The notes beneath the pieces are model-generated. The model searched no databases and was not told the origin of the DNA. It saw only the letters and a list, made by a program, of their open reading frames with translations. The translations under genes and the position numbers were made by a program. Below, one piece after another: positions 1,998-36,253 of a stretch of DNA of 64,000 nucleotides. Numbering within the stretch: position 1 is the first letter of the stretch; each line of letters starts with the position of its first letter. This stretch comes from Planctomycetota bacterium. Lineage in GTDB: Bacteria > Planctomycetota > UBA1135 > GCA-002686595. The stretch is taken from assembly GCA_020853575.1 (NCBI GenBank), contig JADYYP010000024.1, positions 124,001 to 188,000 on the forward strand. Direction: 5' to 3'.

Positions 1998-3539
1998 CTA
2001 CGGCACGATGTCGAAACCGTCCGGCGCGAGCGCCAGGCCGCCCAGTGGGTCGAACACGACGCCGGCGCAGTCGATGCGCGTGCCCACCAGTTGCAGCGCC
2101 AGGTTGGGATTGGGCGTGAAGCGTGCTTCGGCTCGGCCAACGCGGTCGAGCCGGCCGAAGGTGTCCGAGAACTCCGGCGTGTTGACGCCCAGGTACGACG
2201 CGGTCAGCAGATTCGACGAGTTGAGCTGCAGGGTCGTGCCCGCGAAGGGCAAGCCCGGCGCCGTGCCCGCATTCGACAGCAGCACGATGTAGTTGCGGAA
2301 GCGCTGCGGCGGGCCGGCGTGAACGACGATCGGCACGCTCACGCCCGCGCTCAGCGACGCCTCGTCGTGGCCGCAGTGCACCGGTTGCAAAGGGTCGACG
2401 CGCAGCGTGATGTCCGGCTGCAGCGCGATCGCACCTTGACCGTCGTCGACCATCACGCGCCACACGTCGGTCCCGACGCCTTGCTTGGCGCGCACGGAGA
2501 ACGAGTACGAGCCGTCGCCGTGGTCGGACACCGGGCCAGCCGCTGTCACCGGCACGTTGGTCGAGAGATTGAGCAGGGTGACCGTCGCCCCACCGTGGGT
2601 CAGCGGCACGCCGTCGATGTCGCGCAGCACGAACGCGACGTTGGCGGAGGTGGTGCGATCCGCGACCAGGGCTCGAGCGTCGACGAAGAGCTCGCTGTGC
2701 ACCTGGTCGGGACGTCCGATCTGCGCCGTGCGCCACACCGCGTAGTCCTGTTGGAGCGCGAGCACCGGCTCGGGCCCGCTGGTGCTCACGTTGAGCGCGC
2801 AATACAGCGCTCCCGACGCGCAGCCCGTGCCCGAATTGCACTGCGAGGCCCCGCTGTCGCCGATGCGTCCGATCAAGAAGAAGCCGACCAGCGAGCTCAT
2901 GAACGGAGCCGGTGGCGGCAGCGGTTGACACGAAGTCGGCGCTACGTCGCTGCAGGAGCAGCGACCGTCGCCACCCCAAGCGCGCGCCGCCTCCATCGCC
3001 GCCATGACCTTTTGTCCGAGATCTCCCGGAGCGCTGAGGAAGGCCTGCTCGGCCTCGAGCACGACCTCGTCACCGGCCAGGATGTTGCCTTGGATCGCGT
3101 ACTTGAAGTCGCCCACCACGCCGACCACGCCGGGGTTGGCCTCCGAGGTGAAGGCCCCGCTGAAGCTGACCGGCGCGTCGTCCATGTTGACGATGCCGTA
3201 CTGGCGCGACTGGTGCAGCGGTTGCGCGGCGAGCTGCGCCAGGATCGCGGAAGGCGAGAGCCCGGCCCCGAGCCCGTTCCACATGATCAGCCGATTGGGC
3301 CCCGCGTCGACCATCGCTTGCGCCGCGCCGCCGCCGACTCCGATGCGCATCACCGCCAGGTTCTTGCGTAGATTGAAGTTCGAGAGGCAGGTTGCGCCGG
3401 CGACGCAGACTTCCTTGGTGCGCGTGTTGACCGCGATGATCGACCAGGTCGGGAAGGCCGGCCCAGCGAGCAAGGCCAGCGTGGCCGCGCCGGCGAGGAT
3501 GCGCTGGAGACTCGAAGTGTTGTTGCGCGTGGCGCTCAT
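1998..3539 (-). CDS. Secreted DUF1028 family protein
   Basis: A 513-residue exported protein. The start is at MSATRNN, followed by a hydrophobic signal segment ending near the AGPAF stretch. The frame is open further upstream, but the upstream part overlaps another gene antisense and looks non-coding. The mature part opens with FPTWSIIAVN and later shows RQYGIVN and QGNILAGDEVV, which match the DUF1028 family (an Ntn-hydrolase-like fold of unsettled function). After about residue 200 comes a Cys-rich linker and a beta-rich C-terminal half without a recognised domain. That half lacks the C-terminal domain shared by other secreted proteins here. Function is unknown; a role in extracellular amide or peptide processing would be speculation. 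Confidence 0.85.
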   Translation of the reverse strand: MSATRNNTSSLQRILAGAATLALLAGPAFPTWSIIAVNTRTKEVCVAGATCLSNFNLRKNLAVMRIGVGGGAAQAMVDAGPNRLIMWNGLGAGLSPSAILAQLAAQPLHQSRQYGIVNMDDAPVSFSGAFTSEANPGVVGVVGDFKYAIQGNILAGDEVVLEAEQAFLSAPGDLGQKVMAAMEAARAWGGDGRCSCSDVAPTSCQPLPPPAPFMSSLVGFFLIGRIGDSGASQCNSGTGCASGALYCALNVSTSGPEPVLALQQDYAVWRTAQIGRPDQVHSELFVDARALVADRTTSANVAFVLRDIDGVPLTHGGATVTLLNLSTNVPVTAAGPVSDHGDGSYSFSVRAKQGVGTDVWRVMVDDGQGAIALQPDITLRVDPLQPVHCGHDEASLSAGVSVPIVVHAGPPQRFRNYIVLLSNAGTAPGLPFAGTTLQLNSSNLLTASYLGVNTPEFSDTFGRLDRVGRAEARFTPNPNLALQLVGTRIDCAGVVFDPLGGLALAPDGFDIVP

Positions 3540-34359: not shown

Positions 34360-34374
34360 GAGGACACTCGCATG
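34360..34374 (+). promoter_or_regulatory. Ribosome binding site and ATG of an out-of-frame leader
   Basis: GAGGA at 34360-34364 lies 7 bases before ATG at 34372. This ATG opens MSLSLSSSQFAVR, which reads like the n-region of a signal peptide. With the present repeat copy number its frame ends at 34455 instead of entering the downstream gene. Confidence 0.7.
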
Positions 34375-34389
34375 TCGTTGAGCTTGTCG

Positions 34390-34417
34390 AGTTCGCAGTT
34401 CGCAGTTCGCAGTTCGC
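34390..34417 (+). repeat. Heptanucleotide tandem repeat, AGTTCGC x4
   Basis: Four perfect head-to-tail copies of AGTTCGC. The unit length is not a multiple of three, so each gain or loss of one copy shifts the downstream frame. With three copies the ATG at 34372 reads directly into the signal peptide and body of the gene ending at 36253. With four, as here, it does not. Confidence 0.9.
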
Positions 34418-34525
34418 GCGGGCGCGCTGACACTCGCGTGGGCACTGTCCGCTAGCGCCTCACAGGCACTCGCGGCGCCGCAGTTCTGGGACCAGCACAC
34501 GGCGAGCAGCACGCTGTCGCCCAAC

Positions 34526-36253
34526 ATGTTCCCGCAGGATTGTGGAGCAACGACCGACCACCGACGCGCGGCCGTGCGCTACGCGGATCCAAGCTCCAAT
34601 TCCGCGGTCGTGGGCGTGTGGGATCTGACCGGACCGTGGAGCGCGGGATCGGCCAGCCCGCTCGCGGTTTTCGGCGGCGGCGCGCTCAAGTCCGGCTTCC
34701 CGACGGCGCTCAGCGGCGGCTACCGCTACCGCCCCTCCGACCGCATCGAGCTGACCAATGAATGGGGCGTCTCGATCGGATCGGGAGCCTCCGCCGCCGG
34801 CGGCGGCGTGATCGACGAAACCTACATCGAGGTGTTCATGATCGGCACCACTCCTCCCTCCTTCGTGCAGCAGTTCACCGTTCCCGCCGCGAGCGGTCAG
34901 GACGTCGCTGGCTACGCCAACGATTTGGCGATCACGCGCGACGCCCAGTTCGCCGTGGTCAACAGCCGCAACTGGATCCAGGTGCTGCAGCTCTCCGTGC
35001 CTCCCGGAGCCGTGAGCAAGCTGGACTTCAACATCGGCTCGCTCGACTACTCCACGACGCCTCCCACGCCATGGACCCGTCCCTGCGATCCCGACGGCGC
35101 CGTGGACTCCGTGGCCGTGACCAACGAGCGCGCGGTGGTGACGACCAAGCGCTTCAGCGCGACGGCGAACACCTTCACCACCTGGGTCTACATCATCGAC
35201 CTGGTGGCGAGCGGTGGGCCGACGATCGTGCTGCAGCACGAGATCTTGCCGCCGGCGGACTGGGAGCCCGAGTCGGAGAGCGACGTCGAGCATCCGCACG
35301 ATGTCGCGATCACGCCTTCGCGCGATGGTGGCGGCACGCGTGCCGTCGTGACGACCAACCACAGTGTTGCGCTCTACGACCTGGTGACGAACACGTTCGT
35401 GGCGCGGCACTTCGACGAGAAAGACCGGCGCCAATACCAACAGCAAGTCGACTCGGTCGAGCTGACGGGCAAGGTGGCGGTCGTGATCGCGGACGTCGTG
35501 AGCGCCAGCGGACCGACGGTTTGGGGCGTCAAGCTGTTCGACGTGAGCGCGGCGAGCAGCTTGCCACTGGTCGCATCCGACGTGGACGCCAGTCCGCCGC
35601 AGGGTGGCAGTCGGGCCCACGACCTCGCCATCGACTGGGACTTCGACAAGGGTCTGGTGCGCACGACGGAGACGAACGTCTACCTGAGTTCGCTCGTCAC
35701 ACCGACCGCGCCGTTCCAAGAGCTCGTGGGCTCGACGGTGTCGGATGCGTATGCGTATGAGGGCTATCGTCTGCAGTACGCCGGTGTTTTCAGCTCGGAC
35801 TCAGTCGTGATCGGCAGCGAGCAAGGTGGAGTTCTGATGGCGGCGTCGATTGGCGGCATTCGCTCGCTCTCGGGAGTCTACTCAGGCCAAGTCGACTTGA
35901 TCGACCTCCTGGCCACGACTCCGGCGGTCACACCGGTCGCGATCGTGTCGCCCTCCGGCACCTTGGGCGGCTGCGTTCCGCTCGACCTCGCGACCGGCTT
36001 CAACCAGAACGAGGTCGTGGTGCGGAGCGCGGAACGCCCGACCCAGCTTCCGTCGACTCCCGGACCCGATTTGGCGCGCATCGCGTTGGCGAGCGGGGCC
36101 TTCGTTCAAACCTACGGTGGCGACGGGGTGTTGATGGGGTTGGACTCGCTGGCGACGCCTTCGCTGACGGGATTCGTCAACACGGCGCGCAAGCTCTTGA
36201 GCATCTCCGAGGACCCACTCACCGGTCTCGACTACGTGCACGTTGCGAGGTGA
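34526..36253 (+). CDS. Secreted beta-propeller protein, apparent OFF state (leader out of frame)
   Basis: The longest frame with a standard start gives 575 residues from ATG 34526, without a signal peptide. The same frame continues upstream to an in-frame stop at 34379-34381 without any ATG, GTG or TTG. It encodes an ideal hydrophobic signal core (AGALTLAWALSASAS, then QALAA) at 34418-34480. Removing one AGTTCGC unit joins this to ATG 34372, which has a good ribosome site. So the real product is probably ~620 residues from 34372. The body has WD/YVTN-like repeats (ANDLAITRDAQFAVVNSR, AHDLAIDWDFDKGLV). No type I or II C-terminal domain is present. Base composition is a little lower in G+C than that of most neighbours. 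Fixed frameshift or sequencing error is possible. Confidence 0.78.
   Translation: MFPQDCGATTDHRRAAVRYADPSSNSAVVGVWDLTGPWSAGSASPLAVFGGGALKSGFPTALSGGYRYRPSDRIELTNEWGVSIGSGASAAGGGVIDETYIEVFMIGTTPPSFVQQFTVPAASGQDVAGYANDLAITRDAQFAVVNSRNWIQVLQLSVPPGAVSKLDFNIGSLDYSTTPPTPWTRPCDPDGAVDSVAVTNERAVVTTKRFSATANTFTTWVYIIDLVASGGPTIVLQHEILPPADWEPESESDVEHPHDVAITPSRDGGGTRAVVTTNHSVALYDLVTNTFVARHFDEKDRRQYQQQVDSVELTGKVAVVIADVVSASGPTVWGVKLFDVSAASSLPLVASDVDASPPQGGSRAHDLAIDWDFDKGLVRTTETNVYLSSLVTPTAPFQELVGSTVSDAYAYEGYRLQYAGVFSSDSVVIGSEQGGVLMAASIGGIRSLSGVYSGQVDLIDLLATTPAVTPVAIVSPSGTLGGCVPLDLATGFNQNEVVVRSAERPTQLPSTPGPDLARIALASGAFVQTYGGDGVLMGLDSLATPSLTGFVNTARKLLSISEDPLTGLDYVHVAR

Follow-up and report, generated by a model that had tools for sequence, protein, structure and literature searches.

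In the opa genes of Neisseria, pentameric CTCTT repeats lie in the leader-peptide codons of a multigene surface family, and slippage at about 1e-3 per cell per generation changes the copy number that sets the frame at several loci per genome (PMC3960869). In Haemophilus influenzae, heptanucleotide repeats control the surface protein HMW1A by slippage (PMC8262952), although the hmw repeats probably lie in the promoter and tune transcription. In lake Planctomycetota, tandem repeats were reported from long reads to vary within populations, but this concerns noncoding deletions at intergenic repeats, and no frame switch of secreted genes is described in the parts of that work compared here (PMC9426551). 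Long simple repeats have been tied to dependence on a eukaryotic host (PMC4060949 citing Mrazek 2007), and no report of phase variation in Planctomycetota was found in a literature search that did not cover subscription papers. Here, a secreted-protein gene of an uncultured planctomycete was found to carry a 7-bp repeat in its export signal that throws it out of frame, and 20 further leaders of related or similar genes in the same GTDB family have the same layout, mostly with other units, which points to an on/off gene switch previously known mainly from pathogens. The layout resembles that of opa, with a non-triplet coding repeat in the signal-peptide region, but the locus is not a member of the opa genes. 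Opa keeps one unit in its genes and is an outer-membrane barrel of host-associated bacteria, whereas here the units differ from gene to gene (2-17 bp) and the proteins are unrelated. In contrast to the probable promoter position of the hmw repeats, the 7-bp repeat is inside the coding sequence and sets the frame.

The window, the whole 64-kb stretch of DNA analysed, corresponds to positions 124001-188000 of contig C24 of a 6.17-Mb draft genome of 88 contigs (hereafter G000; other genomes of the family and their contigs are likewise given G and C numbers). The original prediction, that four copies of a heptanucleotide repeat hold a secreted beta-propeller gene out of frame and that three copies would restore it, was confirmed to the base with respect to the sequence (Table 1). 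The frame holding the signal-peptide core, AGALTLAWALSASASQALA, is open from 34382 to 36253 (623 codons, no stop), is closed upstream by a stop at 34379 and offers no ATG, GTG or TTG before 34526, which lies beyond the signal peptide. The body itself comprises about 590 codons. The two frames differ by +1, and loss of one unit or gain of two would join them. The body frame looks coding, with GC by codon position of 0.63/0.51/0.85 at 70% GC overall and 0 stops against 20 and 2 in the other frames. No non-triplet array of this size arose in 60 simulated 64-kb windows (first-order Markov), the window has no other perfect array of unit 4-13 with four or more copies, and the unit pair AGTTCGCAGTTCGC occurs nowhere else in the genome, indicating that the array is not due to chance.

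Table 1. Positions of the leader features in the 64-kb window and of other repeat arrays noted in G000 and related genomes (L numbers denote loci).
Position	Strand	Feature	Observation
34361..34365	+	GAGGA, Shine-Dalgarno-like site 7 bases before the ATG	Comparable purine-rich sites precede most of the other leaders
34372..34455	+	Leader ORF in the ATG frame, 27 codons plus stop; inferred product of the OFF state	MSLSLSSSQFAVRSSRGRADTRVGTVR*
34390..34417	+	Array of 4 perfect copies of AGTTCGC	Tandem Repeats Finder: period 7, 4.0 copies, 100% matches
34415..34474	+	Signal-peptide core and cleavage region in the body frame	RAGALTLAWALSASASQALA; repeat-free homologues carry a signal peptide in frame here
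34475..36253	+	Body of the secreted protein, predicted beta-propeller	Intact, +1 to the leader ATG
G000:C20 about 3198-3224 (L159)	-	(TC)13.5 inside the signal peptide of a second copy of the same protein family	Out of frame
G000:C35:3784 (L204) and G000:C50:3711 (L205)	-	(TC)12 and (TC)11.5 in the leaders of two related exported proteins	Both out of frame
L066:1668-1697 (G049:C54:161668)	-	GCGGGCG x4.3 directly at the ATG of an ECF sigma factor gene	Body in another frame
L218:3455-3515 (G027:C206)	-	(CT)30.5 about 25 bases upstream of the ATG of an apparently exported protein	
L078 about 1860 (G049:C46)	-	Run of seven C after the ATG of a relative of the G000:C50 protein	Body in the +1 frame
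L086:6781-6890 (G049:C62)		28-bp unit x3.9 ahead of an exported protein	Every unit carries its own ATG
L225 about 1419 (G052:C16)		TCGCTCTC x3.1 in the leader of a relative of the G031 proteins	Signal and body in yet another frame

The beta-propeller assignment in the original prediction is only moderately supported. No Pfam family was matched, either for this protein or for its family, and the structural model was of low confidence (mean pLDDT 52, pTM 0.63). However, its matches among solved structures were almost all propellers, and weak profile hits to YncE-type proteins were also observed. A surface or exported sensor, adhesin or binding role is a guess.

To examine whether the layout recurs, homologues were collected by a protein search in relatives and a profile search over 81 genomes of the GTDB family, with a second query from a divergent copy, which gave a family of 560-630-residue proteins. 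A class search at E 1e-10 found no member outside this GTDB family. A search of genome contigs for close relatives found only one, which is the same contig as G004:C666; the GTDB genus of G000 includes the genome whose contig equals JABWBL010000080.1, titled 'Planctomycetaceae bacterium isolate MAG_29' (same 9,945-base length and leader). Ten further members have a perfect or near-perfect tandem array between the start codon and the signal-peptide core: CTCGC x5.4 in G004; CGCTCCG x6.4, CTCGC x6.4, GCTCGTCC x9.25 and GCGAGTGCGT x5.7 in G049; TCGCACTC x5.4 and a 16-mer x2.9 in G032; a 17-mer x2.9 in G056; a 16-mer x4.1 in G001; and TC x13.5 in contig C20 of G000. The units are of 2, 5, 7, 8, 10, 16 and 17 bp and never a multiple of three, although only such units would keep a frame. 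All eleven leaders, this one included, are out of frame, seven by +1 and four by +2, and in none is there a start codon in the body frame between the leader start and the signal core, although in C20 the body frame is open far upstream and holds an ATG about 100 nt before the leader ATG. The OFF bodies have no internal stops over 560-630 codons (one, at a contig end, is cut at 315), so they have been under selection. Members without arrays (G049:C22 and C10, G014:C312, G056:C85) have ATG, signal peptide and body in one frame, which shows what the ON form looks like. Relatives with the same copy number and an intact frame were not seen.

On a maximum-likelihood tree of 15 bodies, near neighbours carry different units. 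The 7-mer of this locus sits beside the 5-mer of G004 (support 97/97), and the TC array of G000:C20 sits beside a 16-mer of G001 (99/95; the latter is a partial row on a long branch), indicating that the arrays are not one inherited array but are repeatedly replaced or regained at one place. The family would offer a natural record of how contingency loci arise. Within 2.30 Mb of sampled DNA from G000 and G049, 11 non-triplet arrays reach the size of the one at this locus, and 6 of them lie in these leaders, against about 0.002 expected from the density elsewhere. The sampled contigs were partly chosen because they carry the family, but the comparison density comes from the rest of the same DNA.

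The same layout was also observed in front of other exported proteins when the 81 genomes were searched for (TC)10 and the contexts were read. These comprise two related proteins of 741 and 755 residues in G000 (C35 and C50; no Pfam family), proteins with weak LVIVD-repeat matches in G031 (C37, C94), and further leaders in G032 (C42, C329) and G025 (C8, C64). Following the G031 family added two leaders with 10-mers (GCACTCTCGC x8.2 and CGCTCTCCCG x5.5). In G052, a relative of the G031 proteins has a leader array plus a second shift, and in G049 the C run after the ATG of a relative of the G000:C50 protein is a possible homopolymer switch. Several TC arrays are not leaders (in G017, G013, G053, G039, G020, G030 and G114), and a search for NTCGC arrays gave, beyond the known leaders, only sites that are not clear leaders. 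In G025 the two leaders sit in a shared stretch of nearly 300 bp that is almost identical between the copies and differ by exactly two TC units; with the GTG start, one is in frame and the other is not. This is the nearest thing to a direct view of a copy-number change. In total, 21 leaders were found in eight genomes, 20 out of frame and 1 in frame, with at least four in G000 alone, a wider occurrence than originally proposed.

These results support the original interpretation, and the array is very probably a slipped-strand contingency switch. It is inferred that replication slippage adds or removes 7-bp units, that at frame-joining copy numbers (three here, or six) the ATG leads through the repeat into the signal peptide and the protein is exported, and that at other copy numbers, as in this assembly, the ribosome stops after 27 codons and no exported protein is made. 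The locus would be one of a set of independently switching secreted proteins, giving each cell a random exported repertoire that is mostly off. Without raw reads or same-species genomes, no copy-number variation within one species was seen, and four copies of a 7-mer is a short array. Free slippage predicts one third of leaders in frame, and 1 of 21 is low (P = 0.002 if independent; paralogues are not fully independent). The excess of OFF alleles is unexplained; selection for OFF in most cells is the simplest account, as expression of exported proteins can be costly. A broader reading is about as likely as not, in which unrelated exported families of this planctomycete clade form a secretome-wide set of contingency loci, new non-triplet repeats of many unit lengths keep arising at the signal-peptide codons, and most alleles are held OFF so that each cell exports only a few. 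This would be a phase-variable repertoire like those of host-adapted pathogens in bacteria not known to live in a host, with no known host immune system to evade, perhaps driven by phage or predators. Gene callers will miss or truncate such genes, since the out-of-frame body loses its signal peptide.

Among the alternatives, neutral slippage in a tolerant leader with no switching role is unlikely. Signal peptides tolerate sequence change, and some arrays (TC) make a plausible hydrophobic stretch in any frame. However, neutral change compatible with expression should favour triplet units, none of which was found in these leaders, and the arrays are highly enriched here over the rest of the sampled sequence. 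Recoding, in which the ribosome (or RNA polymerase) shifts frame on the repeat so that the body is made at a set low rate without any DNA change, is not excluded but appears improbable. It is favoured by the 20 of 21 leaders out of frame, of which 15 are offset by +1 and 5 by +2 (P = 0.04), but the mixed offsets argue against a single programmed frameshift as the general cause, the units and sequences are unrelated, no shared slippery site is visible, and one leader is in frame. Assembly or sequencing error, with three copies in the real genome and a plainly expressed gene, is likewise unlikely; the genome is a draft and only one copy number is seen, but arrays of 20-74 nt with different units in eight separate genomes would nearly all have to be miscounted into a wrong frame, and non-triplet arrays in these leaders would still be unexplained. 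A decayed pseudogene with the repeat as the scar of inactivation is very unlikely, since, although the gene is off in this assembly and all repeat-bearing homologues found are off, the bodies are intact, coding-like and conserved across genera and the lesion is always a tandem repeat at the same spot.

Arrays of other arrangements were also noted near start codons (Table 1). The heptamer at the ECF sigma factor gene of G049 (Pfam Sigma70_r4_2, E 1e-10) is a possible switch of a regulator. The CT array of G027 lies upstream of the start codon and may tune transcription or translation rather than frame, and in the 28-bp array of G049 the copy number would change the number of start codons.
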